Positions 7,701-37,290 of a stretch of 41,934 bases of DNA are shown one piece after another (position 1 is the stretch's first letter; each line of letters opens with the position of its first letter). The position numbers were made by a program, and so were the translations under genes. This DNA comes from a virus. The DNA lies in the IMG/VR virus record IMGVR_UViG_3300031758_000162, positions 1 through 41,934 of that record. The stretch is one strand, 5' to 3'. Under the pieces are notes generated by a model. That model searched no databases. It worked only from the letters and a program-made list of their open reading frames with translations, and was not told where the DNA came from.

Positions 7701-10700
7701 AGGGCCTGCCGCCCGGAGTGAAACCCTACGGGAAGAAGCTGGTGGGGCCGCTAAGCTAGAGGAAAAGAAGCCAACGGGCAGGAAACCGCGACCCCCAAAA
7801 GCCCAAGGGGCGGTCGCGGTCGCCCCCTCAAAAACCCCCGCTGAACTGAAGGCTGAGAAGAAGGCCGCTGAGAAAGCTGCGAAGGACCTGAAGAAGGTCG
7901 ATGACGCTATCATAGCAGCCAATAATGCCAACGCGGATGAGCGCACGACTGCATTTGCTCAGCTTGTGCGGATGGGTAACGACGAGAAACTCTCGCCCGC
8001 TGCACGCGCCAAGGCGCAAGAGTACATTGTCACCGAACTCAGCCCGCTGGAACAGATAATGGTAGCTGCCCGTCTGGCAGATGCCAAGTACGCGGACCTA
8101 TCGGATGACGCCAAGGCTGACCTTGCCGCAGACGCCATGGAGGGGTCGAAAAACATCGATGAGAATAAGGTTCCCGCCAGTGAGTTGGAGGAGGTTTATT
8201 CCGCCGTTGCTCAAGTCAGGAAGCAGACAGATAAGATCAAGGGCCTAGCCAAGGCCGGTAAGGATACGCCCGAACGTAGGGAAGAGTACAGGAACGCTTT
8301 TACTAACCTCATCTTCTGGGCCAAGGGGCAGGGTATCTCTGATCAGGCGCAGTGGACTGCGCGTGCGTATCTTGAAACTTACAAGGACAAGACATCCCAA
8401 GGGTGGGCCGGTGTTGAGCAGGCGCTCAAGGACATCGATGAAGGGCGGTATCGCCTCTCCCAGTTCGACGCCGTCACTAACCCCGTGGATGAGAACGGTC
8501 GCCCCGCCAAGGGTGTGAACCCGATCCGGGCCAAGGCTATCGTGGACAAGTTCCGCAGTGGTCTTGCCAAGGCTCCGCGCTTCTACGTCTACAAGAACCA
8601 AGCTGACCTCCAGCGCCGCAATCCCGAACTGTACCAACGTGCAGTGGCAGCGCGTCCGCAGGGAGATTTCGACACTGCCCCGGCTTCGGGCTACGCCTTC
8701 GACAACACGGTGCTGGTCTTCACCGACCGCATCCCGACCGAGAAGCACATGCGGTTCCTGCTGGCTCACGAGGCCATCGGTCACTATGGTATGCGTGCTC
8801 TGCTGCCCGCGAAGCAGTTCGATGCACTCATGGACTACGTCTATGATAATAACCCCAGTGTGCGTCAGTCGGTCGATGGTGCTCTTGGCTTACGTCCTGC
8901 CGGGGTTGCGCCTATGTCTCGGCGCGGTTTTCTGAAAGGTGCAGGCTCTGTTATCGGGGCTGTTGCTGTTCCCAAGATGCCGCGCATCCCAGCAAAGCTA
9001 GATGTGGGTACGTTTGTTAGCGCATTCTCTGAAGTTCAAGAGAAGCTGCGTAATATCAACAACCCCGACAGTGTCGGAAAGGTGGGTGACCTCTTTCTTG
9101 AGATACTCTCTCCGATCAAGGGTTCTGACTACAAACAAGCCATCGCCAAGATGGACAGCATCCTCGACAACGCCAGATCACTAGACGGTGATGTTGAAGG
9201 TAGCAGCAGAGCACTCAGTAAACTTCTTACCGATCTTGAATACCAAGACGATGCGGATTTAATTATCCAGAATTGGTTTGAAGACAATGAAGGTAACGCA
9301 TCTTCACTACTGAAAGAGTTCAGTTCGCTGGTAGAGGAAGCCTACCAAAAGAGGAACATCGAGATTGAAGACCATCTCCGCTCTACATTGGACATGGTTA
9401 AGAAGAAAGTTGGAGGTGATACAAAGAGAGAAGCTCGTCCGACTACTAGCGAAGATGTTGACATGCTCGGTGCCCGCCGCGAGGCGGTCGAAGAGTACAT
9501 GGCGAAGTTCGCTGAGAAGCTGGACAGCAGCATCCTCGCCCGTGTCTGGTATGCCATCAAGGATGTACTGAACAAGCTGGGTGTGAAGTTCGAGGACGAC
9601 ATCGTCCGCTATCTCGTGTCTCAGGCCCGCAGCACCGTGCGCAATGGTTCGTCCATGTTCACGCCCAGCACCTTCGCGCTCAACCTCCAGACCGTGATGA
9701 CCAACAACGGCACGGGTAGGTTCAGTCAAGACTCGGTCTACTCTGCGCAGCATTCACTGCGCAATCAGCTTGACCTTCTCCCTACGCCGCCCGCCAGCAT
9801 GGAGGAAGCGACCAACACTCTCAGGGACCTCAAGATCGATAACCTCGACAGGTTCGAGAGGTTCGTGCGCAAGTTCCTGCGTCTGGGTACTTACAACGCT
9901 CTGCGCAACCATGGGGCAAACATCGCTGAGCATCTCAAGGACGCCATGCGCACGAACGCGGCGAAATTGTACAACACGTATAATGAACGTCTCGCCAAGC
10001 TGCTGGCACTGACGGGAAACTCTCGCCTCGTGGTATCTTATGCCTTGGTGATTAGCCGCCGCATTGCCAGCCCCCGGTTCAAGCTGGATAAGGAACTCCG
10101 CAACGCTCCTCTGCTCATCCTCGGTGATGAACGTCTGGACGGTTCCGGGCGTGACACGAAGGTTGACGAGGATGTACTCAAGAGGCTCCTCGCCATCGGC
10201 ACACTCTCCAAGAAGGAACTCGAAGACGGCGCGGAGATCACCTACGAGGAAGCCGTCGAAGGTAACAAGACCAAGAAAACCACTGAAAAGATCAAGGGTC
10301 TGAAGGAAGAACTCAAGCGTGAACTGACCGACGACGAGTATGACCGCTACGTCGAGACGATGCGGAACCTTGCCGACCTCCATGTGGAGCGCCTGAAGGC
10401 GCAGTTCGACAATTACTTCCTGTCTGAGAAGGTATCCACCAAGGGTATCAACAGGATACTCGCCAACAAGGAAGTGACAGGCGACGACGCCAAGTTCGTC
10501 AAGGACATCGTGAACCACGCCAAGAAGCTCTTCGTGGATGACATGGAATATGACGAGCGCGGCCTGCCGGATGTCACGACCAAGACGGCAATGCGCATGG
10601 AGCAGTTCTTCAAGGCGGTCAACACGGCTATCGTGAAGAAGGAGTTCACCGACGACCTGAAGAAGGACGTGCGGGAGTTCTATTTCCCGAAGCCGACGAA

Positions 10701-13973: not shown

Positions 13974-16841
13974 CTACGATATGACCTGAAGCTGGTTCAG
14001 GGTCATGTTGTCGATAGCACCATCAGCATCATCAAGGATGCTACGCAACCTGTCGTGTGCGAGGTTGACGCCCAGAACGTATATCTGACCCGGCTTCACA
14101 GGACAGTCCTTACCAATTGAAAATTTCTCAGATTTGGGTGTGGCGTTAATGCCACAAATGTTGAAGGTCTTGACGATGGCGTTGTAGTCACCGTGGTTGG
14201 TGTTCACCCACTGCTTGAAATGTTTCCTATCGATCATCATCGTGCCACTGGTGAACGGCTCACTGGGTGACTTGCGGTGCGCATCGATGCGCACGCGAAT
14301 GCCGTTGCGCGGCATACGGCTGTAGTCCACCATTGGCTTGGCCTGACCCACCGTGTGCATCACCGTGACTGTCTCGCTGGCCGCATCGTTGAGATACGCC
14401 GCCAGCATGTCGAAGGCATCCATCTGGTTGGACTTGATCGTGTCGCGCATCGCGCCGATCTGGTTGAGGATAGCCCTCGTACATTTCTCGTAGTCGTACT
14501 GACTGAGGTTCAGCTTGCTGGCAAGCTCGTTGCCGAGATCGGCCTTAATGATGCCGTTCTCCCAGAAGCGTTCCTGCCCGGTGAACTTCGCATTGTACTT
14601 CTTGAAGAAGCGGACACGGTGATCTTCGACCATCGCCCTACAACCATCCTCGCCAAGCTCGACCAGATGCTTGATCAGCACCTCACCTGCGGTGCCATGG
14701 TTCTCAGCGAGGAAATCGTATATCTTCTTGCCAGCAGTCGAACTGTCGCTGAACATCGGCACTGCGTGCATGTTGATCTCCAGCAGTCGGGCAAGCTGCG
14801 CATCGGTGTCCATGCCCGAGGTCATCATCTTGGAGCCGAGCGATCTGTTGGATGAGGTCACGCACGGCAGACCCCACGTCTTGCCCTCTCTTTCCTCCGA
14901 GTTCTTATTGAGGCGGGCCTTGTCCTTGCCCTGAGTAACCCAGTAGCAGAAGTCTCCGACTTCCTTGTCGGGCATCATCGTCGCTTCATCGATGGTAATG
15001 GGCAGGTTGTTGTAGAACCCGAAGCGAGAGAACACGGCGTTCTGTGTGTACTTCGCCGTGAAGTGCAGCTTGTCTGGGATACCGTAGATCGACTGCATCC
15101 AAAGCTGCGCGATGGACTTGCCCGACCCCGTGGGGCCGCAGAGGCTGATCACCACGCCACGCAGACCGCTGAACTGGTAGAGCGGTGCGGAGAACGCCAC
15201 GCCAAGGGCGAAGCCGTGGATCGGCAGGTTGGCCTTCTCAATGATGGACGTGAACGTCGCCCACTTCTGCACGTCACCCTTTACGTCAAACAACTTCTCG
15301 CCAAGCCGTTGCGATGTCGCTGCTAGGTTGATTGGCTCAACCACTGCGGAGCCACTGTCGTCGCGCCGGATCAACCGGTCACCGATGAGGAACTGGGTGT
15401 TGTTCTCCTTCCACCCCATGGTGGAGTAGAGGTTGGTGACCGCCTTGATCTTGCGGAGTTCATCCATGTATGCGCGGAGCATGTTTTGAAAACTCGCTGT
15501 CTGGTTCTTGCTGGCAAGGACGATACCTTGGTCAGCGATGGCTGTTGCGAACTCGCGGTTCTCTTGGGCCAGATATGCCTGACGGAAGCGGAGTTCCTTC
15601 CACCCAGAGTGCGGGCGGTTCCAGTGGTAGCGCACCACCTCGTAGCCCAGTGTCTCGTCGTACCCATAGCCTACCGGGTAGATGTCGAACTTGCACACGT
15701 CGATGTCGGTGCCATCCGTTACTTGCTTGATGCCATCCGCCGTGCGCTTGTAGGGCTTGGGGATCGGGACTTGGAACGCCACTTGATCCGGTGCGCTCTG
15801 CTCGACGGTGACCTCTTCACGCTGCAAGCCCAGCCGCGCTGGCGACCCGATGCGATCCTTGAAGCGGCACGACTTGCAGATATCCGGGCGCTCACTGTCA
15901 AACTTCGCACAGGTAGTCGGACCCGTGGCGGCGTTCTTCCAGTGGCCTACCTTGCGGATCGTCTCGTCTTCGCTGAAGGTGGGGTGGTCCTTCGACCACG
16001 CAATGGCGGTGTCTTCCGGGTTTTCGCAGAAGGCTGCGATACCCATCAGCCCGTACCACATAGGCTCGGGGACATCCTTCTGGTTCGACACGGCCCAGTT
16101 CACTTGGGCGCACTTGGATACGATGACATCCGGCTTGGCAGGCGGGTACTCTTGTCTTACGGATAACTTATCCAGCAGAGTAGTCTTGTTGTTAGCATTT
16201 GTACGCGAAGTAAAAGGAACGACATTAGCGACCACATATTTGCCCAAGCACTGTCGCATCGCTTCCACCGTGGTGGCCGGGGCATTGATCACCACCTTGA
16301 CCTCGCCACCACCCTTGGGATTGATCGTCCCTGTGGGGCGCAGCACTCGCGCAGCATCGGCGGGCACTGCCGGGTCTACCTTGAAGCCATGCTGGCGGCA
16401 CGCCGCCTTCAGCTTCTCCGCGATGGGCTTCCACTCGCCGGGTTCGAGTTCCTCCTCCAGCACCCAGTAGACGTGCCAGCCGTTGCCCGACGATACCACC
16501 ATGGGCTTCGGTAACCCGGTGTCCTTGACGAACTGGCTCAGTGCCAGCAGCCCGTCCTTCTTGGTGGCGTACTTCTTTGGAGTATCTTCTCCACAGTCGA
16601 TGTCGAGGAAGAATGCTTTAAGAGCCGACACGGCGTGAGCCTTGCGGGTGCCGTTCTCGTTGAACGAAGCGACTGCATAGTAGACGTTGTGGCCCTTGTC
16701 GCTCAGCGCGTTCGCAAAGGTCGCAAGCTGATCGATGGTGTCGAAGCTCCGCTGCTTCGGTTGCTGTCCCTTGTCGATCACGGTGACGACATACCAGCCT
16801 TGGGACGGCAGTACGTACCGCAAGAAGTCCAGCGTGTTCAT
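13974..16841 (-). CDS. Primase-helicase: AEP-type prim-pol plus DUF927-like ATPase
   Basis: 955 aa. The N-terminal domain is an archaeo-eukaryotic-type primase/polymerase. FFLDIDCG gives the metal-binding Asp80 and Asp82, SSGNGWHVYW (S117-W126) the SxGxGxH motif, and RVLRPTGTINPK a further basic motif. A Cys cluster around C311, C322 and C325 may bind zinc. The C-terminal half is a DUF927-type P-loop ATPase: Walker A GPTGSGKS (569-576), Walker B PITIDEA (Asp618, Glu619) and a VTSSNRSLGS sensor-like segment. It would make primers and unwind DNA at the phage fork, with the DNA polymerase encoded upstream in the same operon. Start: ATG with CAGGAG upstream. A perfect hairpin (16867-16888) lies just before it. 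Confidence 0.88.
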   Translation of the reverse strand: MNTLDFLRYVLPSQGWYVVTVIDKGQQPKQRSFDTIDQLATFANALSDKGHNVYYAVASFNENGTRKAHAVSALKAFFLDIDCGEDTPKKYATKKDGLLALSQFVKDTGLPKPMVVSSGNGWHVYWVLEEELEPGEWKPIAEKLKAACRQHGFKVDPAVPADAARVLRPTGTINPKGGGEVKVVINAPATTVEAMRQCLGKYVVANVVPFTSRTNANNKTTLLDKLSVRQEYPPAKPDVIVSKCAQVNWAVSNQKDVPEPMWYGLMGIAAFCENPEDTAIAWSKDHPTFSEDETIRKVGHWKNAATGPTTCAKFDSERPDICKSCRFKDRIGSPARLGLQREEVTVEQSAPDQVAFQVPIPKPYKRTADGIKQVTDGTDIDVCKFDIYPVGYGYDETLGYEVVRYHWNRPHSGWKELRFRQAYLAQENREFATAIADQGIVLASKNQTASFQNMLRAYMDELRKIKAVTNLYSTMGWKENNTQFLIGDRLIRRDDSGSAVVEPINLAATSQRLGEKLFDVKGDVQKWATFTSIIEKANLPIHGFALGVAFSAPLYQFSGLRGVVISLCGPTGSGKSIAQLWMQSIYGIPDKLHFTAKYTQNAVFSRFGFYNNLPITIDEATMMPDKEVGDFCYWVTQGKDKARLNKNSEEREGKTWGLPCVTSSNRSLGSKMMTSGMDTDAQLARLLEINMHAVPMFSDSSTAGKKIYDFLAENHGTAGEVLIKHLVELGEDGCRAMVEDHRVRFFKKYNAKFTGQERFWENGIIKADLGNELASKLNLSQYDYEKCTRAILNQIGAMRDTIKSNQMDAFDMLAAYLNDAASETVTVMHTVGQAKPMVDYSRMPRNGIRVRIDAHRKSPSEPFTSGTMMIDRKHFKQWVNTNHGDYNAIVKTFNICGINATPKSEKFSIGKDCPVKPGQIYVLGVNLAHDRLRSILDDADGAIDNMTLNQLQVIS

Positions 16842-16904: not shown

Positions 16905-17180
16905 TTAGCTGACCAGCGCAAGCAACCGTTCGCGGCGCTGGGGAGGGGGAAGAGGCATGACCTCTTCCTCCCATTGCTTGTCCTTCATCAGGTCCAGCAT
17001 GACCTTGACGACCTTCTTCACACGGGACGCTTGCGTTTGTCGCATGTTCCCACCACGCACCCACAAGTAGTAGGTCATGCGCGATACGCCAATCGCTGCG
17101 GCCACGTCTGAAGAGCTAAGTCCAAGGCGGTTGCGCAGAAGCTCTACCTTGGAGAAGTCCAGCTTAGGCGTCTGCGTCAT
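16905..17180 (-). CDS. Small Cro/C1-type helix-turn-helix protein
   Basis: 91 aa. Residues about 14-46 (LLRNRLGLSSSDVAAAIGVS then RMTYYLWVRGG) form a typical Cro/C1-like helix-turn-helix: a helix, the DVAAAIGVS turn, and a recognition helix with RMTYYLWV. A basic helix (RVKKVVKVMLDLMKDK) and a Pro-rich linker follow. The start overlaps the end of the upstream gene by 17 nt, so the two are coupled. It may be a transcriptional regulator or a replication-accessory DNA-binding protein. The absence of any other lysogeny gene argues against a prophage repressor. Confidence 0.7.
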   Translation of the reverse strand: MTQTPKLDFSKVELLRNRLGLSSSDVAAAIGVSRMTYYLWVRGGNMRQTQASRVKKVVKVMLDLMKDKQWEEEVMPLPPPQRRERLLALVS

Positions 17181-20758: not shown

Positions 20759-21418
20759 TTACTGGGCAGAAGGACACAGGTGTCGTGCAGGGCAGAAACG
20801 GCACAATCCGCTGGGGCGGGCGGGCCAATTATCTGTTTCTACTGACTTTTCTATGCGCTTAATCTGTGTAAGGAGTTTCGTCCACAGTGTTGCGGCATCC
20901 TGTCGCATGTAGACTTCGCGGTCCATGGCCTTGTCCTTCAACCAGACGAAGCCCACGGCGACACGCTCGACCTCTGGGTAGTGCGTGAAGATTTGCAGGG
21001 CATAGAGTTCAAGCTGATCGAAGTCGGGTTTGCGCTTGCCGGTCTTCCAGTCGAGGACCTTTGCATCCTTCTGATTTATTACCAGTACGTCGATCTTCGT
21101 GCGCAGCCATGCGTCATCGTCAGACCATCCGGTGGGCTTGAGTTCGACGTTCAGCGTGAGTTCCTGTTCGACCAGCAGTTCGCCCGCGCCAAGGCTGTCG
21201 ATGATCGCCGTGGTCAATGGCTCGTAGTGCGCCGCCTCCTGCGGAAGCTCGGTGTTCGTCTTGAGGCGGTCCTCCAAGAACTTGTGGATGCGCTCACCAT
21301 GGTGCGTGGCTTCGCTGCCGGGGTCGCTGACCGCCTTCCTGATCCGCTGGTGGTAGTATCTCAGCGGGCAGTTCATGTACATCTTGATGGACGAGTAGGA
21401 GTGGGTCAGCTTGGTCAT
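20759..21418 (-). CDS. Cas4/AddB-like PD-(D/E)xK exonuclease with Fe-S cysteines
   Basis: 219 aa. SYSSIKMYMNCPLRYYHQRI carries Cys17. HHGERIH is the His-containing motif I region, KIDVLV gives Asp110, VLDWKTGK gives Asp123 and Lys125, and QLELYA is the QxxxY helix. CRFCPARHLC near the C-terminus gives Cys206, Cys209 and Cys215. With Cys17 these four match the iron-sulphur pattern of Cas4 and AddB nucleases. Likely role: end-resection or recombination nuclease during phage replication. The gene shares an ATGA overlap with the dCMP deaminase gene and sits 32 nt before the VRR-NUC gene. No CRISPR array is present, so it is not a CRISPR component. Confidence 0.88.
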   Translation of the reverse strand: MTKLTHSYSSIKMYMNCPLRYYHQRIRKAVSDPGSEATHHGERIHKFLEDRLKTNTELPQEAAHYEPLTTAIIDSLGAGELLVEQELTLNVELKPTGWSDDDAWLRTKIDVLVINQKDAKVLDWKTGKRKPDFDQLELYALQIFTHYPEVERVAVGFVWLKDKAMDREVYMRQDAATLWTKLLTQIKRIEKSVETDNWPARPSGLCRFCPARHLCPSAQ

Positions 21419-29004: not shown

Positions 29005-29175
29005 TCAGTTATCCTCTATCTTGAATGAATGTGTATCAACTTGCACGACCTCGGCTTCGCCTCGGCCAACCCGGCACACCGCATCATGCAGTGCGTAGAG
29101 ATCGTCTCTCGTCCTGCGCCACTCCCAGTAATAAAACAGGGCTAGGGCGCAGGACATCAGTGCGATCACCTCCAT
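29005..29175 (-). CDS. 56-aa membrane-anchored protein
   Basis: Read directly from the sequence: the ATG overlaps the stop of the VWA gene (TGATGG), and the frame ends one base before the next gene's ATG. Residues 2-17 (EVIALMSCALALFYYW) form an N-terminal hydrophobic anchor. A charged cytoplasmic-type tail follows (EWRRTRDDLYALHDAVCRVG, ending HSFKIEDN). Without this gene the interval 29004-29174 would be an unexplained gap in an otherwise gapless operon. Function unknown. Confidence 0.65.
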   Translation of the reverse strand: MEVIALMSCALALFYYWEWRRTRDDLYALHDAVCRVGRGEAEVVQVDTHSFKIEDN

Positions 29176-30290
29176 CACATCTTCACCACTTCACCCCACG
29201 GGGCGCTGTCGCTGTAGTTGCTGACCCAGAGTACGGGGTACTCGGGCACAGGGCCAAAGTCGGAGCAGCACAGATCGGTCAGCACCACGCAAGCGACCGG
29301 GTGAATGTCGTTGCTGGTGATGTACTCGAAGATCGGAGAGAAGGCAGTGCCGCCAGTCTCAGGGGAGGAGAGCTTGCCGACCTCATCGTCGGGCATGAAC
29401 ACCTCGTACTTGCAGACCTCATGGTGGAAGTAAATCACATGCAGCTTCTCCGGTGCGCCGTCAGTGTGGATGGCGCGAAGCTCGGCGGCGAACTCGTTGA
29501 GTTCCTTGTCGCCAATGGAACCGGAGCAGTCGAGTGCAACCACCATCTCGCCAAGGCGTTCGCCAGTACGAGACGGCAGGTACATACCCTGCGTGAAGAA
29601 GCGACGATTGGGACGGGCGAAGGTACGCTCGTCGGTCTTGGCCTTCATCACGAAGCGGCGCAGCACATCGCGCCAGTCCACCTTGGGTTGGAGGAACTCA
29701 CCAACGATACGCTGGAGTGCAGCAGACAACTTACCTGCTGCACGAGCGGCCTGTGCTGCCTGTGCCACGGTGACCTTGAGATCAGCGATCTGCTGTTCCT
29801 GATCAGTGGCGCTGCCGTCAGCCTCTTGGATATCCTGACCGATACCACCATCGTTGGGGCCACCGTTGAAGTCGCCGCCTTCGCCATCCTCAAGGATGTT
29901 ATAGATACCGTCAGTGCTGCCGTTGCCAGCATCGTAGATCGACTTGTTGAGCAGTCCACCTTCGATGAACTTGCCGATCTTCTCGTCGGTCAGAAGCTGG
30001 TTGATGACGTAGTCACCAGCACGGTTCCACTTGCGAATGTCACGCCCGTTGAGGCGGAACATATGCTCGAACATGGGGTGGAATACCTCGTGCGCAACGA
30101 GGAACTTAAGCTGCTCGTCGCACAGGTCCTTGATGAAGTTGGGATTGAACTTGACCCACTTGCCATTGGTGCAAGCAGTCGGGATGCTATCATCCAGCAT
30201 CATGGGCATGTTGAGTGCCAGCGTTCCAATGAACGGCTGTTCGAGGATCAGCGCGGTACGCGCCTTGGCAAGTCTACGTTCGAGGTTCAT
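29175..30290 (-). CDS. VWA-domain protein with N-terminal zincin-like motif (MoxR partner)
   Basis: 371 aa. FLVAHEVFHPMFEHMFR contains HExxH (His67, Glu68, His71), matching the metallopeptidase-like N-terminal domain often joined to VWA-like domains (DUF2201 type). An acidic, Gly/Asp-rich linker spans about 115-165. The C-terminal half has VVALDCSGSIGD, the D-x-S-x-S MIDAS metal site, then GGTAFSPIFEYI and CVVLTDLCCSDF. Such proteins pair with MoxR AAA+ ATPases as chaperone or metal-insertion-like systems; phage N4 has a comparable AAA+/VWA pair. The gene is preceded by the same leader as the MoxR gene, suggesting matched control. Confidence 0.8.
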   Translation of the reverse strand: MNLERRLAKARTALILEQPFIGTLALNMPMMLDDSIPTACTNGKWVKFNPNFIKDLCDEQLKFLVAHEVFHPMFEHMFRLNGRDIRKWNRAGDYVINQLLTDEKIGKFIEGGLLNKSIYDAGNGSTDGIYNILEDGEGGDFNGGPNDGGIGQDIQEADGSATDQEQQIADLKVTVAQAAQAARAAGKLSAALQRIVGEFLQPKVDWRDVLRRFVMKAKTDERTFARPNRRFFTQGMYLPSRTGERLGEMVVALDCSGSIGDKELNEFAAELRAIHTDGAPEKLHVIYFHHEVCKYEVFMPDDEVGKLSSPETGGTAFSPIFEYITSNDIHPVACVVLTDLCCSDFGPVPEYPVLWVSNYSDSAPWGEVVKM

Positions 30291-30377
30291 GGTGTAAATA
30301 TCCTTTGTGTTGTCGAGGGCTGGGATTGTCGCACGGCGGGCCGTGCAGGTCGATGCGACAGATCGTCGCGGGGTCCG
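30291..30377 (-). promoter_or_regulatory. Shared leader element, copy A (before the VWA gene)
   Basis: This 87-nt gap between a stop codon and the VWA start holds a leader also found before the MoxR gene and the first gene of the operon. On the + strand it contains the inverted repeat GCGAC-N5-GTCGC (30355-30369), TGTCGCACGGC (30327-30337) and GTCGAGGGC (30312-30320). A hairpin-capable CACGGC-GG-GCCGTG lies between. An AAGGA ribosome-binding site follows. It could be a repressor operator, promoter or structured RNA leader. Confidence 0.6.
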
Positions 30378-30623
30378 TCAATTTGTGATAACTTCCTCCA
30401 CCACCACGGTCTGATTGCGGTAGCAGTCTTCGATCAAGTCGATGATATCATTCATCAGCCCGTCAGCGTTCTTGCCACGCCTGTCTGCCACCATGAAAGC
30501 CAGCAGTGCTATAGCTTTGGCGAAGGCGAGGATGACCTCGGCGTCCGTAGCATTGTCCGGTGGCAGCGAAAGAAGTTCCGGCACCAGCTTGTGGACGAGG
30601 TCCATGTCTGGACTATTGCTCAT
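30378..30623 (-). CDS. Hypothetical protein, 81 aa
   Basis: Not recognised. Helical throughout: MDLVHKLVPELLSLPPDNAT, then DAEVILAFAKAIALLAFMVA, then an acidic C-terminus (NDIIDLIEDCYRNQTVVVEE). The hydrophobic helix at about 32-47 could pack in a helical bundle rather than a membrane. It overlaps the upstream gene by 11 nt and ends directly at leader A. Function unknown. Confidence 0.6.
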   Translation of the reverse strand: MSNSPDMDLVHKLVPELLSLPPDNATDAEVILAFAKAIALLAFMVADRRGKNADGLMNDIIDLIEDCYRNQTVVVEEVITN

Positions 30624-30813
30624 TGTATGCTCCTGTCAGTTTCTTGTGAACATATTCTCGGTAAGCCTGCCAGTATAGCATCAGTTCTTGCTCATGGCAC
30701 TGGTAGTAAGGAACGTCACGCAGCATAGGCGTCTCGACGCCCAGCAGCATGACCTTGGCGAAGATCAGCTTGGCCTCTTCCTTGCCGGGATAATCGAGTG
30801 GGATTTCGATCAC
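30613..30813 (-). CDS. Hypothetical protein, 66 aa, paralog of its neighbour
   Basis: GTG start in a GTGA overlap with the upstream stop. MIEIPLDYPGKEEAKLIFAK then VMLLGVETP matches the start of the adjacent 76-aa protein (M-I-E-[IL]-P...P-G-x-E...LLG-[IV]-[DE]-x-P). A charged, Tyr-rich C-terminus follows (YWQAYREYVHKKLTG). The two genes probably arose by tandem duplication. Function unknown. Confidence 0.65.
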   Translation of the reverse strand: MIEIPLDYPGKEEAKLIFAKVMLLGVETPMLRDVPYYQCHEQELMLYWQAYREYVHKKLTGAYNEQ

Positions 30814-31040
30814 TTCATGGCCCTCAGTCGCTTGGTGACCTCCAGCCGGAACCGCTCCCAGCGTTCCTTCTTCTCGCGCCGGGAGAGTTGGTCATAGGGT
30901 TTGATCTCTGCCCAGTGCATACCGTCCTTATCTGTCATAGTGACAGCGTGCCGGGGTATGTCGATACCCAACAGGCGAAGGGTTGCGAGGATCACTCGCA
31001 ACCGCTCCATACCCGGCCACTTTTTCGGCAGTTCGATCAC
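30810..31040 (-). CDS. Hypothetical protein, 76 aa, paralog of its neighbour
   Basis: GTG start (GTG ATC GAA, the same first three codons as the paralog downstream) in a GTGA overlap with the DUF3150-like gene. MIELPKKWPGMERLRVILAT then LRLLGIDIP aligns with the downstream 66-aa protein. The C-terminal half is very basic and Arg-rich (SRREKKERWERFRLEVTKRL). A nucleic-acid contact is possible but unproven. Confidence 0.65.
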   Translation of the reverse strand: MIELPKKWPGMERLRVILATLRLLGIDIPRHAVTMTDKDGMHWAEIKPYDQLSRREKKERWERFRLEVTKRLRAMK

Positions 31041-31897
31041 AGACCACCCATGAACGCCGCCATCTTGTCCATGATGGCCTTGGCCTCATCGATCTTGGTG
31101 GCGCGGAGCTTATCGTTACCGACAACGGCGTCCTTGTTGAGGTTCGCCAGCTTCTGCTCGACCTCATGGCGCATGGCTTCGAGGTTGGGGTCATCCGCGA
31201 AGTTGAGGCGCGGCAGCAGTTCGCACAGGTCCTTGACGTGTTCGATGCTGCTCTCATGGAAACGTGACTTGGGATCGTCTACCTTAACCATCTTATCCAC
31301 AAGATGTTCCACCTTGTCGTAGAGCCGCTGCCATACATCCTTCATTGCGGAAGCACTGGCGTCCTGCACACGGCGCTCCACGTCCTGCTGAATACGCGCC
31401 AGTTCCTCGCCGCCAAGCTGAACCCGGAAATCGTTGGACGGTACGGGGAACACAGCCATATCCATCCTGAACTTGGCCGCGATCTGGCTCTCGTGGGGGT
31501 AGTCCTCCTCACGGTACAGCGAACCAAGGAACCGCTTGGAGTCGGCCTTCAGCGTGGGGAAGTTGGCGACGAACAGGTTCTTGAGCGTCTCCCACTCGGC
31601 CTTCTCCTTGCGGAACTCGTTGATGAAGTTCAGGTAGTTGGCAGTGGGCAGCAACTGGGTGCCTTCGATGCCCCATGCCAGCGTGTTCTCGTAGAACTTG
31701 TTGCGGATATAGCCCGCCTTCTGATGCACCATGGCGAGGTAGTCATTCGCCGGGAGCAGGGACTTGTGATAGCGGCCAACGGATGCGTTGACGCCATGAG
31801 CATGGGCCACCTCCTGTGTGGCCTTCTTGTCATGCTTTCGAGCGGTCCACTGGGAGATGGACAACTGGACGAGGAGAGCGCGGTCGGAGAGTTGCAT
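31037..31897 (-). CDS. DUF3150-like protein of the MoxR-VWA cluster
   Basis: 286 aa from ATG 31897, with AAGGAA about 9 nt upstream; the longer frame adds 13 residues across a hairpin. The pattern resembles DUF3150: LVQLSISQWTARKHDKKATQ, then YHKSLLPANDYLAMVHQKAG, TLAWGIEGTQLLPTANYLNF, a long helix, and YPHESQIAAKFRMDMAVFPV. The C-terminal third is helical and coiled-coil-like. DUF3150 proteins are typically encoded with a MoxR-type ATPase in phages, as here where the MoxR gene lies immediately upstream. Molecular role unknown; I infer a component or client of the MoxR-VWA machine. Confidence 0.65.
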   Translation of the reverse strand: MQLSDRALLVQLSISQWTARKHDKKATQEVAHAHGVNASVGRYHKSLLPANDYLAMVHQKAGYIRNKFYENTLAWGIEGTQLLPTANYLNFINEFRKEKAEWETLKNLFVANFPTLKADSKRFLGSLYREEDYPHESQIAAKFRMDMAVFPVPSNDFRVQLGGEELARIQQDVERRVQDASASAMKDVWQRLYDKVEHLVDKMVKVDDPKSRFHESSIEHVKDLCELLPRLNFADDPNLEAMRHEVEQKLANLNKDAVVGNDKLRATKIDEAKAIMDKMAAFMGGL

Positions 31898-31922
31898 GAG
31901 ATATGTTCCTTGTAGAAGGTTA

Positions 31923-31946
31923 GGGGGAGACACCATTGTCTCCCCC
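31923..31946 (-). other. Perfect 10-bp intercistronic hairpin
   Basis: GGGGGAGACA and TGTCTCCCCC flank a 4-nt loop (ATGG on the transcribed strand). It lies between the MoxR stop and the DUF3150-like ribosome-binding site. The transcript continues UAACCUUCUA rather than with a U-run, so an intrinsic terminator is unlikely. Partial attenuation, RNase processing or mRNA stabilisation are possible. Confidence 0.65.
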
Positions 31947-31955
31947 GTACAGAGA

Positions 31956-32954
31956 TCAGAACATCACATCGTGATGCTTGACAACCCAGTTGCTGAGCGC
32001 AGCCGTGTTGTGCAGTTCCTTGTCGCGCCGCAGCGCCATGCTGACCATGAGGACGGAGAACTCAGGGGGCATACGCTCAGCGTACTGGCACACCCGCTCA
32101 AAGTTGCCGACACTGGCACGCTGGGCGATGGAACCAGCGAGAGCGTACAGCGTGGCCGGGTCATTGGGCACGTCAGCCGTCTTGGGGTTCATCAGCACCA
32201 CGTCAGGGTTGGGCAGCTTACGGGCGATCTTGAGGAAGGCCGTGAACTCCGTGGCAGGACCCTCGCCAACAGCGCCCATGAACACCTCGCGCTCGGCCTC
32301 CTTGGGCACCACGTCAAGGGCCGGGGAGACACGCTCAGCCCAACCACGGGGTGAGGCGTTCTTGGTACGCTGCGGATCGAAATCGTGCAGCAGTGCCGTC
32401 TTGAAGTTGATGAAGCTGATCACCTCGGGACGAACGCCGTTCTCGCTGGCCCATGCGGTCCAGTCCGTGTGGTGGGTGTCAAGGGTGAACTCGTACTCAC
32501 GGTCAGCAAGGTGGCTCAGCACACGGTTGGCACCAGCACGGTCCTCCTGACGGTTACCCGTCGAGAGGATGAACCAGTTGTCAGCGAGGGGAACACCGTG
32601 AAGCTCACGCTCCTGAACGAGGTTGGCGAGAGCCTTCTGGAGATCGTTGCCAGCCTGATTGCGGTCATCGAAGCACAGGATACCCGGCACATCGTTGTCG
32701 TGCTTGGACCCCTTGGCCGGGAACCAGTCGGGCAGCTTGTAGTACAGCATCGGCTTGTCAACCATCGGCACACCAAGGTCCTCGACGGGCATGGTGGGCA
32801 GGTGACGCTGGAGGTACTGGTAGTTGAGCTTCTTGGCGACCTGCTTGATGATGGAGGTCTTACCGCCACCGGGGATACCGACGACGACAGCGGAGGACTT
32901 AACCTCCGACTGGATGAGGGAGCAGAGGGTGTCGATCAGAAGAGGTGCACGCAT
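31956..32954 (-). CDS. MoxR-type AAA+ ATPase
   Basis: 332 aa from the ATG at 32954, which has AAGGA upstream; the longer frame runs back through the leader. Walker A is VVVGIPGGGKTSI (Lys32). The Walker B region is GILCFDDRNQA, with a second Asp where Glu is usual. VPLADNWFILSTGNR is the sensor 1 segment with Asn. LADREYEFTL and DWTAWASENGVRPEVISFI are typical of the MoxR lid and helix-2-insert region. MoxR ATPases remodel protein complexes with VWA partners; here the VWA and DUF3150-like genes follow. The shared leader B precedes this gene. Confidence 0.85.
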   Translation of the reverse strand: MRAPLLIDTLCSLIQSEVKSSAVVVGIPGGGKTSIIKQVAKKLNYQYLQRHLPTMPVEDLGVPMVDKPMLYYKLPDWFPAKGSKHDNDVPGILCFDDRNQAGNDLQKALANLVQERELHGVPLADNWFILSTGNRQEDRAGANRVLSHLADREYEFTLDTHHTDWTAWASENGVRPEVISFINFKTALLHDFDPQRTKNASPRGWAERVSPALDVVPKEAEREVFMGAVGEGPATEFTAFLKIARKLPNPDVVLMNPKTADVPNDPATLYALAGSIAQRASVGNFERVCQYAERMPPEFSVLMVSMALRRDKELHNTAALSNWVVKHHDVMF

Positions 32955-33054
32955 TGGTGTATATATCCTTGTTGCAGTGGTTGGGTTGGTCGAGGGCCGG
33001 GAGTGTCGCACGGCCAGCCGGGGCGGTCGATGCGGCACGGTGTCGCAGGGGGCC
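32955..33054 (-). promoter_or_regulatory. Shared leader element, copy B (before the MoxR gene)
   Basis: On the + strand: GTCGAGGGC (32989-32997), TGTCGCACGGC (33004-33014) and the inverted repeat TGCGGC-N5-GTCGCA (33031-33047, one mismatch). These have the same order and nearly the same spacing as copy A (15 nt between the first two elements in both). Even the ribosome-binding region matches (AAGGATAT.TACACC). This strongly suggests common control of the MoxR and VWA genes. Confidence 0.65.
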
Positions 33055-33080
33055 GCTGCCCCTGATATATCAGGGGCAGC
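33055..33080. other. 26-bp perfect palindrome
   Basis: GCTGCCCCTGATA followed directly by its exact reverse complement. As RNA it forms a stem of about 11 bp with a short AU loop. It lies just upstream (in transcription direction) of leader B, between a small gene and the MoxR gene. No U-run follows. A dimeric-protein operator or an mRNA processing hairpin are the main options. Confidence 0.7.
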
Positions 33081-33107
33081 AGAACTCGTTGAATGAGTAC
33101 TCGAAGG

Positions 33108-33335
33108 CTACAAAACCATCTTCTTGACAGCGATGGCCGTCAGTATCTGAGGCTTCAGCGCCTTGAGTTCAGCGGGTGATACACGGGGGTCGGTAAGACC
33201 ATCGGCTTTGAACGACGAGGTCAGCCTGCCAGTGGCATAGCCGTAAAGCAGCACGACCCTGCGCCCACTCCTATGGGCAATGACCTCCGCATACTTTGGC
33301 TTGAGATTCACCCTATGGATGACCCAGTCGTCCAT
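33108..33335 (-). CDS. Hypothetical protein, 75 aa
   Basis: Not recognised. It contains strand-like sequence (DDWVIHRVNLKPKYAEVIAH then RSGRRVVLLYGYATGRLTSS) and a helical C-terminus (SPAELKALKPQILTAIAVKK). The ATG at 33335 lies in a TGATG overlap with the upstream stop; a GTG three bases earlier is an alternative. It ends 28 nt before the palindrome. Function unknown. Confidence 0.6.
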   Translation of the reverse strand: MDDWVIHRVNLKPKYAEVIAHRSGRRVVLLYGYATGRLTSSFKADGLTDPRVSPAELKALKPQILTAIAVKKMVL

Positions 33336-33574
33336 CACGTCACCATCTTGGCGAGGGTGGGCTTGTTGAAGCTCGGCACATAGAGCCTTTTCTTATACCC
33401 AAGCCCCACGTTGATGGCCTTGTAGTACAACACCGCCTGATGGATGTTCCCCATGAAGCGATAGCGAGTGCGGTACGCACTGCGGTTCTTGCCCACCTGC
33501 ACCAAGAACTCGGTCTGGTTGGTGTAGGCAATGCGCTTGCCGTCGAGGGTGACGTATTTGATTTCGATATCCAT
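33335..33574 (-). CDS. Hypothetical protein, 79 aa
   Basis: Not recognised. Basic and Tyr-rich with alternating strand-like segments: MDIEIKYVTLDGKRIAYTNQ, then TEFLVQVGKNRSAYRTRYRF, ending KKRLYVPSFNKPTLAKMVT. A small beta-rich protein seems likely. Its end (AKMVT, then TGATGG) is identical at the DNA level over 18 nt to the end of the 103-aa gene at 24543. Starts three bases after the preceding stop. Function unknown. Confidence 0.6.
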   Translation of the reverse strand: MDIEIKYVTLDGKRIAYTNQTEFLVQVGKNRSAYRTRYRFMGNIHQAVLYYKAINVGLGYKKRLYVPSFNKPTLAKMVT

Positions 33575-33577
33575 GAT

Positions 33578-33895
33578 TTATTTCCTCTTACCGTTCTTGG
33601 CGCGATACTCGGCCAGCTTCACCGGGAACTCACTGACAAGGCCCATGAACACATGGGCTTCATCCTGATGCCTTGACATCCAATTATAGACCTCGGCATC
33701 CGCGATGATCTCAGGTTCACCACGGATTGCGCTCTTGAGCGTCAGGATAGCCAAGGGGAAATCGTTCTCGCTGTTCGCCAGAACTCCCCGAACGAACGCA
33801 ACTCGTTCGAGAAACCTTACGGTCTTGTCGTGCTTGGCCTGTGCATGTTCGAGGTCACGCTTCGCATCAGCCATACGCTTTACGATATCATCCAT
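33578..33895 (-). CDS. Hypothetical helical protein, 105 aa
   Basis: Not recognised. The N-terminal third is a charged helix (MDDIVKRMADAKRDLEHAQA then KHDKTVRFLERV). The rest is mixed (NDFPLAILTLKSAIRGEPEI, YNWMSRHQDEAHVFMGLVSE). Start: ATG with GGAG upstream inside leader copy D1. Function unknown. Confidence 0.6.
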   Translation of the reverse strand: MDDIVKRMADAKRDLEHAQAKHDKTVRFLERVAFVRGVLANSENDFPLAILTLKSAIRGEPEIIADAEVYNWMSRHQDEAHVFMGLVSEFPVKLAEYRAKNGKRK

Positions 33896-33967
33896 TTGTT
33901 ATCTCCATTGGGCGGGCTTGCCCCCACTACGCAGCCAGTTGCGCTGACTGCGTAGGAAAGGTTTCCC
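33896..33967 (-). promoter_or_regulatory. Duplicated leader element, copy D1
   Basis: In transcription direction the gap begins GGGAAACC right after the TAA of the preceding gene. It then forms a hairpin with arms CTACGCAG/CTGCGTAG (33927-33955) and an inner CAG-TTGCG-CTG. It ends in GGGGCAAGCCCGCCCAATGG leading into the ribosome-binding site. A 22-nt block is identical to copy D2 at 35162-35183, while the hairpin sequence differs but is retained. Covariation of this kind suggests a structured RNA. Confidence 0.6.
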
Positions 33968-34237
33968 TTAAAATTTACCGTTGATGCGGGCCAAGGCAAT
34001 ATGCGGCGCGGCCAAGTACCACAGCTTATTTGTCATAGCCTTTGGTAGGCCAATACTACGGTCAAACGGTGCTTCATCGTCTAGGGCACGAGATAGCGTA
34101 GCGTAGTAGTGTTTGGTCTGGGTGTCGAAGCTGAACCGCCACTCGCGCCGATCTGCCTTGCGGCAGGTATCAACCATGATGATATCCATCCACTCGTCGT
34201 TACGCTGTATGGCTACAACCTTGAACTTATCCAGCAT
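33968..34237 (-). CDS. Hypothetical protein, 89 aa
   Basis: Not recognised. MLDKFKVVAIQRNDEWMDII then MVDTCRKADRREWRFSFDTQ suggests a small alpha/beta protein, ending KLWYLAAPHIALARINGKF. The ATG at 34237 is preferred because GAGG lies 6 nt upstream; an ATG four codons earlier, in an ATGA overlap, is the alternative. Followed directly by leader D1. Function unknown. Confidence 0.6.
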   Translation of the reverse strand: MLDKFKVVAIQRNDEWMDIIMVDTCRKADRREWRFSFDTQTKHYYATLSRALDDEAPFDRSIGLPKAMTNKLWYLAAPHIALARINGKF

Positions 34238-34245
34238 AGCGCACC

Positions 34246-34503
34246 TCATGCGAAGAACGTGAAGGTCGCCACATCACAGGCGAGAACGCCATACTGTGCG
34301 GCATCGTGCCACCGCATGAACTCGGTATCTTCCGATACATCCACACAGTGGCAGGACCCGTAGGTTCTAACCATATCGTTGACGAAGGCTTCAAGCTGAG
34401 CCTGATCCTCATCTTCAAGGCCCGTCTCATCGCCGTTGATGAGCGGTGAGGCCCAGTGCATGGGCAGCATGAGGGTGTAGGTCTTGATCTTGTGTTTAGC
34501 CAT
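34246..34503 (-). CDS. Hypothetical protein, 85 aa
   Basis: Not recognised. A basic start (MAKHKIKTYTLMLPMHWASP) leads to an acidic middle (INGDETGLEDEDQAQLEAFV). CHCVDVSEDTEFMRWHDAAQ then YGVLACDVATFTFFA ends the protein. The C-H-C and later C-D may bind metal. The ATG at 34503 has GGAGG 9 nt upstream and overlaps the 49-aa gene by 8 nt. The longer frame has no support. Function unknown. Confidence 0.6.
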   Translation of the reverse strand: MAKHKIKTYTLMLPMHWASPLINGDETGLEDEDQAQLEAFVNDMVRTYGSCHCVDVSEDTEFMRWHDAAQYGVLACDVATFTFFA

Positions 34504-34645
34504 TGTTTGTTTCCTCCATGAGTTTACGGGCTTCACGCAGGGTGGCGAGAGCCTGACCCCGTGTGTCGTTATGTGTCTTACCAGAAGCATAGACCTCCAG
34601 CATGGCGATGAGATCGGTCATCACGTCCTTGGTGCGCTTATCCAT
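34496..34645 (-). CDS. 49-aa hypothetical protein
   Basis: Read directly from the sequence: ATG at 34645 overlapping the upstream gene's stop by 8 nt, and a TAA overlapping the next ATG by 8 nt. The product is helical (MDKRTKDVMTDLIAMLEVYA then SGKTHNDTRGQALATLREAR), ending KLMEETNNG. Its position between two well-supported genes, in an operon without gaps, supports it. Function unknown. Confidence 0.65.
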   Translation of the reverse strand: MDKRTKDVMTDLIAMLEVYASGKTHNDTRGQALATLREARKLMEETNNG

Positions 34646-34985
34646 TGGTCAGCCTTTCATAAACGAGAGAGTTGTAGCCCATCCTGTCCAAGAGCCTGAT
34701 CTGATCAGGACTCAACAACACGGTGCTACAGTGCGGATGCGTTTGCGTCCGGTGCTTGGATGTTGTTGGGCTGAATTTATCCTTGTTCTCGAACCATGTA
34801 TCCACCTTCGAGACATAGACGAACAGCGGCCAATGGGTGCCATAGGAGTACACCACATAACGAGCGTCACCGTTCTCTATGCCGTTAAGGCCAACCCACT
34901 CAGCATAAAGCTGACCGTTGCTGTTCTTGAACGGCAGCTTACGCTGAACATATGGACGGGACAGCCGTCCGTTAATTCGCTTCAT
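34638..34985 (-). CDS. Hypothetical protein, 115 aa
   Basis: Not recognised. A very basic N-terminus (MKRINGRLSRPYVQRKLPFK) is followed by strand-like sequence (YVVYSYGTHWPLFVYVSKVD) and a C-terminal PDQIRLLDRMGYNSLVYERL. A small DNA- or RNA-binding protein is conceivable. Starts three bases after the stop of the 55-aa membrane protein. Function unknown. Confidence 0.6.
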   Translation of the reverse strand: MKRINGRLSRPYVQRKLPFKNSNGQLYAEWVGLNGIENGDARYVVYSYGTHWPLFVYVSKVDTWFENKDKFSPTTSKHRTQTHPHCSTVLLSPDQIRLLDRMGYNSLVYERLTNG

Positions 34986-34988
34986 AAC

Positions 34989-35156
34989 TTATACTCCATA
35001 GAGAATGTTAAGGGTGACGATGAGCGACACTGACAGCATGGCGAAGTAGGCCATCCAGCCAATGCGCTCCCACCTTCGCCTTGTGATCTCGTCAGCAATG
35101 GCGAAGGTCCTTCGAGCAAGGAAGATTTCCTCACGGGTCCAGTGATTGTGATCCAT
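34989..35156 (-). CDS. 55-aa tail-anchored membrane protein
   Basis: Read directly from the sequence. The ATG at 35156 has GGAGG five bases upstream. The basic N-terminal half (MDHNHWTREEIFLARRTFAI then ADEITRRRWERI) is followed by one C-terminal transmembrane helix (GWMAYFAMLSVSLIVTLNIL). A longer frame over the same DNA is a shadow: it has no membrane or domain logic and its start falls inside leader D2. Function unknown. Confidence 0.7.
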   Translation of the reverse strand: MDHNHWTREEIFLARRTFAIADEITRRRWERIGWMAYFAMLSVSLIVTLNILYGV

Positions 35157-35220
35157 TTATCCTCCATTGGGCGGGCTTGCCCCAACGCCACCAGCTTATG
35201 CTGATGGCGGTAGAGTTTCC
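35157..35220 (-). promoter_or_regulatory. Duplicated leader element, copy D2
   Basis: In transcription direction it begins GGGAAACT overlapping the TAG of the preceding gene. A hairpin follows (10-bp arms with one mismatch, TTAT/ATAA loop, 35186-35209). It ends with the same GGGGCAAGCCCGCCCAATGG block as copy D1, followed by GGAGG. The stem sequence differs completely from D1 but the fold is conserved, so the RNA structure probably matters. Confidence 0.6.
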
Positions 35221-35424
35221 CTAGCTGTGGCAATAGCCATCACGTTCAATGCACAGCCACATGCCGCACCACGGTACGGTCACCGCGCCATCGCAGCCAA
35301 ACGTGGGCTGTACGAGCTTACGGAAATCACGGTAGGTAGCCTTGGGCGGCATCCTGTTCCGTGTGGCATCGCGGTCGAAGACCCGCTTGATGGCCTTGCG
35401 CTGAGCTTTGGTGGTTCTAACCAT
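35221..35424 (-). CDS. Hypothetical basic protein, 67 aa
   Basis: Not recognised. MVRTTKAQRKAIKRVFDRDA then TRNRMPPKATYRDFRKLVQP is strongly basic. The C-terminus is Cys-rich (FGCDGAVTVPWCGMWLCIER, ending DGYCHS). Four Cys suggest metal binding or disulphides; a nucleic-acid-binding role is plausible. The ATG at 35424 has GGAGG upstream; the longer frame adds an unsupported 48 residues. Function unknown. Confidence 0.6.
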   Translation of the reverse strand: MVRTTKAQRKAIKRVFDRDATRNRMPPKATYRDFRKLVQPTFGCDGAVTVPWCGMWLCIERDGYCHS

Positions 35425-35437
35425 GATGTTATCCTCC

Positions 35438-35719
35438 TCAGAAGTTTCGTGCAGAATGCACGGTGACGATGTAGCGGTTGCCGTACATCCTGTTGATACT
35501 GGTAACACCACCAGTGCGATGACCACAGCAGTCACGCTGGCAGTAACAGCGCATCTCGAAGTAACCACGGATATCCTTCTCGTCCCTCTCGGTCAGGGTT
35601 TCCCGCTCGGTGTCGAGGATGTAGACCGTGGTCTTAGGCTCGGTCATGTCGTAGTCATCTTCGCCGCTACCTTCACGGCAGTCCGTCAGCGTTCCGTTCT
35701 CCATGATCCTGAATGACAT
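35438..35719 (-). CDS. Hypothetical Cys-rich protein, 93 aa
   Basis: Not recognised. The N-terminal half is acidic (TLTDCREGSGEDDYDMTEPK). A Cys cluster follows in MRCYCQRDCCGHRTGGVTSI, compatible with a small zinc site (C-x-C-x3-C-C-x-H). It ends MYGNRYIVTVHSARNF. Function unknown. Confidence 0.6.
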   Translation of the reverse strand: MSFRIMENGTLTDCREGSGEDDYDMTEPKTTVYILDTERETLTERDEKDIRGYFEMRCYCQRDCCGHRTGGVTSINRMYGNRYIVTVHSARNF

Positions 35720-35722
35720 GGG

Positions 35723-35911
35723 TTATCCTTTCAGCCAGTGTTGCGCAGTGTCGAAGGCTTCCACCCGGTCAGTGACATAGGCGTCAGCCTTGAAGAGATA
35801 GGTTTCACCGTCGAAGAACTGGACGATGTACTGGTTCCACTCAGTGTCGCGGCGAACCACCACGGACCTGCCATTGGGGTTGGAACCACGGTAGATGATA
35901 CGGTTAGCCAT
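35723..35911 (-). CDS. Hypothetical protein, 62 aa
   Basis: Not recognised. MANRIIYRGSNPNGRSVVVR, RDTEWNQYIVQFFDGETYLF and VTDRVEAFDTAQHW suggest a compact beta-rich fold with a C-terminal helix. The ATG at 35911 has AAGGA about 10 nt upstream and overlaps the preceding gene by 8 nt. The longer frame (28 extra residues) is not supported. Confidence 0.6.
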   Translation of the reverse strand: MANRIIYRGSNPNGRSVVVRRDTEWNQYIVQFFDGETYLFKADAYVTDRVEAFDTAQHWLKG

Positions 35912-36095
35912 TGGGGATATCCTTGATGAACTTGGGGGTGCAGATGACCCAACTATCGCCTCGTTCCATAGCGAACGAGTAATGCTTGGCCTCAATGGCA
36001 GCTTTGGCCGCTACACAGGCAGCTTCGCTGCGGAAATCCACCACAAGGGGGCCACCAGCATAGTGCACATTGAGAAAGGCTATGAGTACCCACAT
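35904..36095 (-). CDS. Hypothetical protein, 63 aa
   Basis: Not recognised. A hydrophobic N-terminal strand (MWVLIAFLNVHYAGGPLVVD) is followed by a helix (RSEAACVAAKAAIEAKHYSF) and a strand (GDSWVICTPKFIKDIPNG). A small alpha/beta fold is likely. The ATG at 36095 lies one base after the upstream TGA (TGATATG), with GGGAG upstream. An in-frame ATG 14 codons earlier is less likely. Confidence 0.6.
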   Translation of the reverse strand: MWVLIAFLNVHYAGGPLVVDFRSEAACVAAKAAIEAKHYSFAMERGDSWVICTPKFIKDIPNG

Positions 36096-36096
36096 A

Positions 36097-36333
36097 TCAC
36101 CACTCCCCTGTTGCGACGATCTCATTGCGGTGATCATCCATTGCCTTCAGCGTCTTGCGCAGCTTACGGATAGCAGCATCCGCACTGCGGCAGTTCTTCA
36201 CCTCGCCAAGGATGGCGGCGTCGTCCCAACACTCAACGAGATAGTCCCATCCGCCTTCGGCGTAATGCCGAAGGGCGTGGTCCCTGATGAACTTGACGAG
36301 GGCTTCGTCGCTGTAATCTGTCTGGTTAGCCAT
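36097..36333 (-). CDS. Hypothetical helical protein, 78 aa
   Basis: Not recognised. Helical and charged: TDYSDEALVKFIRDHALRHY, then AEGGWDYLVECWDDAAILGE, then DAAIRKLRKTLKAMDDHRNE. No motif identified. It is the second gene of the operon, five bases after the first. By its position at the head of a long early-type operon it could be a host-takeover protein, but that is inference from location only. Confidence 0.6.
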   Translation of the reverse strand: MANQTDYSDEALVKFIRDHALRHYAEGGWDYLVECWDDAAILGEVKNCRSADAAIRKLRKTLKAMDDHRNEIVATGEW

Positions 36334-36338
36334 GTGCC

Positions 36339-36578
36339 TTACTCCTGAGAATATGTTACGAACAACACGGTGCAGGAACCACGAGGGGTGAACTTGAGCA
36401 TGTCGCCGTAGTCTTCCCAGCGGCCTCGAACGCCCTTGATGCCCATCAGGTCCTTGGCGAAGCCCTTGATGAAGCTATTGGGCGTACCCTGTTCCACCAT
36501 GAAGGTGTCACGTTTGACCCAAGCGTAGTTGGCCTCACCGCCGAACGTATCTGTAAACTCTACTGTAAACTTATCCAT
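36339..36578 (-). CDS. Hypothetical protein, 79 aa, first gene of the long - strand operon
   Basis: Not recognised. MDKFTVEFTDTFGGEANYAW, then VKRDTFMVEQGTPNSFIKGF and GRWEDYGDMLKFTPRGSCTV suggest a small alpha/beta protein. The ATG at 36578 has AAGGAG 7 nt upstream. It is preceded by leader copy C and the AT-rich control region, so it should be the promoter-proximal gene of the 23-kb operon. Function unknown. Confidence 0.65.
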   Translation of the reverse strand: MDKFTVEFTDTFGGEANYAWVKRDTFMVEQGTPNSFIKGFAKDLMGIKGVRGRWEDYGDMLKFTPRGSCTVLFVTYSQE

Positions 36579-36664
36579 TTGGTATCTCCTTAGGCCGTTG
36601 ATCGACCGTGGCACAGCGTCCCACAAATCCGGCGCGGCGTCGATGCGACACGTCGTCGCACCCC
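36579..36664 (-). promoter_or_regulatory. Shared leader element, copy C (head of the long operon)
   Basis: On the + strand it contains the perfect inverted repeat TGCGAC-N5-GTCGCA (36644-36660) with the flanking GTCGATGCG shared with copies A and B. A more diverged downstream half follows. It sits between the AT-rich region and the first gene. This is the copy where promoter or operator function is most natural, because an operon head needs one. Confidence 0.6.
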
Positions 36665-37290
36665 CATAAGTGTAAACTTTAGATGTAAAGTTAGGCTAAG
36701 TTTACATGCCGAAAGGCTCGACTATCCGTTAACAGATAGCTAACAGGGCGATTTTAGATAGGCGACAGATAGGCGTAAGTCTTTGTTTTTATTGGGTGCT
36801 ATCTGTACTATCTGAACTATCTGTGTTTTTTCTGTTAATGTGGGGGTAACTTGGGAAGGTGAGGCGGGTTAGGAGTGTAAAGTCCTAGTGTCTTAGTAGA
36901 GTATATGAAAAAAAAAGGTGAGTGACTCTTAATAATATACAGATAGTTAGATAGTATAGATAGATAGACGCTCTGGTATTTTGCTAAGTCCTTGGTTTCA
37001 TTGGTCTTTCGGGAATTATACTGTAAAGTATTCCCTCTTTGTTCGTGTAAAGTTAGCTACAGATTTTACATCTAGCACAGCCCAAATCGCAGATAGTTGG
37101 CGCTAAGTGCTTGAAATCATTGAGTGTAAAGTTATAATCGGGTTTACATAAGGGGCTTAGGTTGTAAGATAGCCAGAGGACTTAAGAGTTCACCTTTTTA
37201 CGGCAAGCTATAGGCCCCCGACGTATGGCCGAACGAAGTGAGGGCAAAACCCCCCAACGCCACAGGCGCGGCAGGTCAAAACGCAGGCAA
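36665..37290. promoter_or_regulatory. AT-rich non-coding region with multiple short repeats (candidate origin / early control region)
   Basis: No convincing gene is seen in about 600 bases, which are far more AT-rich than the rest of the window. Repeats include TGTAAA...TTTACA inverted pairs at 36684-36706, 37046-37070 and 37125-37148. Single TGTAAA sites occur at 36671, 36876 and 37022. CAGATAG or CTATCTG occurs at 36733, 36766, 36799, 36808, 36817, 36940 and 37090. A TAAGTNCTTG...ATTG motif recurs near 36776, 36984 and 37103. An A9 run lies near 36908. AT-richness with repeated sites at an operon head is typical of a replication origin and/or a repressor-controlled early promoter region. 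I could not choose a single promoter. Confidence 0.6.

Follow-up and report, generated by a model that had tools for sequence, protein, structure and literature searches.

The IMG/VR record IMGVR_UViG_3300031758_000162 comes from an uncultured phage. This genome fragment of 41.9 kb (41,934 nucleotides, here called the window) carries the same leader sequence three times on its minus strand: at the head of a leftward operon, before a MoxR gene and before a VWA gene. These leaders are very probably promoters equipped with an operator. They join a dyad to -35-like and -10-like hexamers in a fixed geometry conserved in other phages, the dyad matches published sites of the response regulator RegA, and the same composite recurs in bacterial genomes, partly beside RegBA-like genes. 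Judging from sequence, the dyad would probably be bound by a host homologue of RegA/PrrA/ActR. An initial annotation had proposed that the operon head, MoxR and VWA share one reused control element, and these results support it. At the DNA level, no match to known phages was found for the window.

Layout and conservation of the leaders

The leaders match YGCGACRNNNTGYCGCATCGAC at 36639-36660 (operon head), 33026-33047 (MoxR) and 30349-30370 (VWA), and no further match exists in the window with up to three mismatches. Dinucleotide shuffles (n = 100) gave 0.15 matches on average and never reached three. When the MoxR leader was searched by BLAST against the record, it retrieved the VWA leader (79% over 73 bp, E = 5e-11). 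Two of the leaders have the strings GTCGAGGGC and TGTCGCACGGC in common, equally spaced, as well as AAGGATAT(A/T)TACACC(A)ATG; the equal spacing and the shared ribosome-binding region are as first described. The inverted repeat reported at the same time is indeed present in all three, but the MoxR copy is imperfect (GCGAC-N5-GCCGC, with a changed right arm). Additional GCGAC/GTCGC pentamers had been read as a repeated protein-binding site; the element is of the protein-site type, but TGTCGCACGGC (plus strand), taken for these extra pentamers, coincides with the extended -10 (TGCGACACT/TGCGACAAT).

At the operon head, the 17-bp dyad TGCGACG-ACG-TGTCGCA occupies 36644-36660 and is adjoined at a fixed position by the -35-like TCGACG (36638-36643), with the -10-like GACGCT (36615-36620) following after a 17-bp spacer and a TG 1 nucleotide upstream of it. 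The MoxR dyad, TGCGACA-CCG-TGCCGCA (33031-33047), was located by sequence and motif scan and has one A-C mismatch that the GNCGC half-site tolerates; it is followed by TCGACC (33025-33030) and, 17 bp further, by GACACT (33002-33007, in TGC-GACACT). Before VWA, the dyad reads CGCGACG-ATC-TGTCGCA (30354-30370), with TCGACC at 30348-30353 and, again after 17 bp, GACAAT at 30325-30330 (in TGC-GACAAT). The -10-like hexamers and the last two -35-like hexamers were placed by aligning the leaders.

Across 18 aligned phage leaders the constant parts are GCGAC, TGYCGCAT and TCGAC-like bases, then a -10-like hexamer after exactly 17 bp. The pattern nAnnnT (A2 and T6) stands at this spacing in 17 of the 18, and in none or one at any other. 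Because many of these leaders are close kin, the count overstates how independent they are; the lineages that count as independent are the window group, the contig L168 and the phages L029 and L042. Positions 2 and 6 (A and T) are the most conserved of the sigma-70 -10 element, and the distance of 17 bp lies inside the sigma-70 range of 16-18 bp. Most leaders also have a TG one base ahead of the hexamer, giving an extended -10, TGSGACACT. They thus resemble sigma-70 extended -10 promoters in spacer, TGn and A2 plus T6 but differ in lacking T1 and T3 of the -10, and hence are probably weak unless activated. Good consensus hexamers are missing: TCGACC and GACACT fall under a 9-of-12 scan threshold, and a simple promoter scan misses the leaders. 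Such poor -10 elements (GACACT, GACAAT, GACGCT) fit an activator-dependent promoter. In the syntenic Rhizobium phage RHph_TM27A, a consensus sigma-70 promoter (TTGACA-N17-TATAAA, about 14540-14570) precedes MoxR, so that a promoter is to be expected at the corresponding position of the window.

Conservation in related phages, which the initial annotation had made a test of its proposal, was found at two levels. In close relatives (L004-L010; MoxR 81-100% identical) the leaders are retained at the corresponding genes, and L168, a 59.5 kb contig with a MoxR 80% identical, has the full head/MoxR/VWA triad. The leader is missing from nearly all MoxR relatives at 57-62% identity, and the core GCGRCR-N4-GNCGC was not found within the scanned stretches of Pseudomonas phage Rollin. 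A scan of viral contigs revealed two further phages, L029 and L042, each with two copies of the motif in like orientation, 75-110 nucleotides ahead of start codons; one L029 copy precedes MoxR. L029 has in common with the window only MoxR (28%), the gene that follows it (26%) and VWA, the range being 26-33% identity, and L042, which encodes a RecE-type exonuclease, is unrelated to the window phage. The cassette of MoxR, a middle protein of 286-299 residues and VWA spans 29175-32954 in the window, with the middle gene at 31037-31897, and 3200-6305 in L029; the same type of leader stands before both MoxR genes.

The dyad and RegA-family sites

The dyads were compared with a matrix derived from 33 RegA sites mapped by chromatin immunoprecipitation sequencing (ChIP-seq) in Rhodobacter capsulatus (PMC5359404). 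The matrix, whose consensus is GCGACAAATTGTCGC, ranked the VWA dyad first, the head dyad fourth and the MoxR dyad 66th among 41,920 window positions, a result equalled by one in 20,000 random triples of segments. Within their own loci, the L029 sites rank first and those of L042 first and fifth. Published boxes are SSGNVRDNHYSNCSS for RegA and GNGRCRTTNNGNCGC for RegR (PMC5359404, PMC5506826), and RegA sites of Acidithiobacillus lie upstream of the -35 (PMC5506826). All three leaders contain an inverted repeat of the family type GCGNC-N5-GNCGC, match the relaxed RegR pattern GNGRCRNNNNGNCGC and place the dyad upstream of the -35-like hexamer, directly against it. With the RegA/PrrA/RegR boxes of Rhodobacter and Bradyrhizobium they share a 15-bp GCGAC-N5-GTCGC dyad upstream of the -35, but the leader dyads are far tighter in sequence, are fixed against the -35 and occur in phages. 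The earlier statement that no established family predicts the element is not supported: its dyad is of the RegA/PrrA/RegR type known from the literature, joined to a -35, a 17-bp spacer and a -10.

The position ranked third by the same matrix, 20892-20906 (GCGGCATCCTGTCGC), lies inside an exonuclease gene. Its counterpart, at 15735 in the L168 contig, is the single site found there besides the three leaders when one mismatch is allowed. Conserved codons probably account for this similarity.

When bacterial genomes were scanned with the core, 113 sites were obtained, of which 98 remained once duplicates and sites located at ends had been removed. In 13 of the 98, TAnnnT stands exactly 17 bp past the -35-like hexamer, against none or one at every other spacing, and 12 of these 13 fall among the 33 sites with YGCGACA. 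In total, about 15 bacterial promoters have this geometry. As ATCGAC was built into the search pattern, the evidence lies in the spacing and not in the conservation of this string. Downstream genes include those for Fe/Mn superoxide dismutase, CcmH, a YtkA/FixH-like protein, TonB receptors and an outer-membrane protein. In two Acidobacterial loci (L078 and L099), the motif adjoins genes for a histidine kinase and for a response regulator whose helix-turn-helix (HTH) is of the Fis type; their best NCBIfam hits are ActS/PrrB/RegB and ActR/PrrA/RegA (NF033791 and NF033792), under the equivalog cut-off. A kinase with part of a regulator was found in L061, and a regulator motif in L104.

The full composite of dyad, TCGAC, 17 bp and -10 was also observed before genes of redox or respiration type (L061, L065, L066, L069, L078, L097, L099, L124, L128, L130 and L132). 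It is possible that these bacterial loci form an undescribed RegA-type regulon outside the alphaproteobacteria.

From these elements a mechanism can be proposed. A dyad TGCGACR-NNN-TGYCGCA of 17 bp, of the RegA/PrrA/ActR/RegR type and centred near -44, is followed directly by a -35-like TCGACN, then by a 17-bp spacer and the poor, extended -10 TGSGACACT. A start of transcription is predicted some 7 nucleotides past the -10, which would leave a 5' untranslated region of 28-41 nucleotides. A redox-responsive response regulator of the host, seated on the dyad beside sigma-70 region 4, would recruit RNA polymerase to these weak promoters; the position of the dyad suggests activation rather than repression. 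The head operon, MoxR and VWA genes of the phage would in this way be coupled to the redox state of the host. A host regulator of the RegA type is favoured because unrelated phages share the motif and bacteria use the composite, while no regulator common to the window phage, L029 and L042 was found and a Fis-type HTH is missing from the window. For the same reasons the HTH proteins of the phage, suggested at first as candidate binders, are not favoured.

More tentatively, unrelated phages may independently have placed the transcription of MoxR/VWA and of operon heads under host RegBA, which would act as a redox gate, responding to quinone or oxygen state, on lytic expression. The use of a host two-component regulator by phages is already documented: cyanophage genes are controlled by host PhoB (PMC10976474, citing Zeng and Chisholm 2012). 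Cyanophage Pho boxes likewise put the operator of such a regulator into phage promoters and tie infection to host physiology, but here the predicted regulator is a redox one (RegA/PrrA/ActR), the genes are MoxR/VWA and a leftward operon, and the system is known from sequence. If true, oxygen or respiration would be linked to the infection programme of several unrelated phages, and the unexplained MoxR-VWA cassette found in many phages would gain a simple experimental handle.

Several observations weigh against a RegA-type promoter. Sites of the RegA family are degenerate, and ChIP-seq of PrrA gave no strong consensus (PMC4263372); matches to them are by themselves no proof of binding. Column-permuted matrices ranked the three dyads equally well in 6 of 2000 cases. 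The strict RegR box GNGRCRTTNNGNCGC, with TT at positions 7-8, has no match in the window, this being one published RegR form from which the RegA and PrrA forms differ. The Acidobacterial regulators score 172 bits against an NCBIfam cut-off of 250. Two of the three -35 hexamers of L168 are divergent, and RHph_TM27A, with its consensus promoter before MoxR, lacks the core in the 48.9 kb scanned. Among 369 gamma-class genomes the strict composite occurs in three, of which two are seeds, and it occurs in none of 385 alpha-class genomes; such rarity implies a tighter motif in the phage than in a typical host regulon.

Other readings of the dyad

It is unlikely, in our view, that the composite promoter is the same but that another transcription factor of the host, one recognising GCGAC-N5-GTCGC, reads its dyad. 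Within the 8 kb retrieved, a RegA gene is missing from most promoter-like bacterial loci, RegA-type motifs being limited to L078, L099, L104 and L167, and some downstream genes appear to be copper-related; against this stand the RegBA-like pairs adjoining the motif in Acidobacteria and the ChIP-derived RegA consensus itself. Copper operators of the CopY/BlaI or CusR type were considered on account of the copper-like bacterial genes and rejected; the adjacent regulators are RegA-like instead. The half-site spacing of such operators does not fit the dyad.

Less likely still, the dyad would be the operator of a regulator of the leftward operon encoded by the phage. The window does encode HTH proteins at 16905, 21834 and 25032, the motif is tight and present in three copies, and L029 is a fragment. 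The missing common regulator and Fis-type HTH noted above speak against such an operator, as does the identical composite before chromosomal genes.

A structured RNA leader, riboswitch-like or attenuator, which the initial annotation had kept as its alternative, is very improbable. The dyad could fold into a 7-bp stem with a 3-nucleotide loop, but across 15 distinct sequences compensatory changes were seen at none of the seven stem pairs, two pairs are disrupted, each in three sequences, the fixed A-C of the MoxR leaders in the window group being one case, the loop is variable, and the dyad sits upstream of the inferred start. An Rfam search returned nothing near gathering score, with one match at chance level (19.6 against 49 bits). 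A structured RNA was rejected for lack of covariation and of an Rfam family.

A hairpin promoter for an N4-type virion RNA polymerase is scarcely conceivable: the short stem of seven pairs, the loop of three nucleotides and the MoxR/VWA pair also found in N4-like phages recall such promoters, but the leaders have a -35 and a conserved -10, a variable loop and a stem devoid of compensatory changes, and no virion RNA polymerase was found in the window, where the 2901-residue virion protein resembles that of F116-like phages (PLxRFG type) and has no polymerase match, and where PF00940 gave no hit, a weak negative given a silent positive control and a fragmentary record.

Neighbouring genes and regions

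The first gene of the leftward operon, taken from the open reading frame list and the sequence, lies at 36339-36578 (ATG at 36578). MoxR, a MoxR-type AAA ATPase of 332 residues, is encoded at 31956-32954 (phrog_1297, E = 7e-68; PF07728), and the VWA gene at 29175-30290 encodes a metallopeptidase/VWA-like protein with DUF2201, of 371 residues (PF13203, PF09967; phrog_1314). All of these and the middle gene of the cassette are on the minus strand, as is a perfect 26-bp palindrome, GCTGCCCCTGATATATCAGGGGCAGC, at 33055-33080, directly upstream of the MoxR promoter and with no U-tract. It is possibly a unit boundary or, although it lacks the U-tract, a terminator-like element. Upstream of MoxR in L008-L010, repeats of a unit GACAAATCAGGGGCAGCGGCCCCCTGCGAC are present.

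The 2901-residue protein is encoded at 4717-13422, and its C-terminal 450 residues are related to a giant PLxRFG-type protein of F116-like phages. At the other end of the window, 36670-37200 is a divergent region, rich in AT, in which TGTAAA/TTTACA and AACTATCTGT/AGATAGTT motifs recur; it is possibly an origin or an early control region. A rightward consensus promoter, TTGAAA-16-TATAAT, lies within it at 37111.

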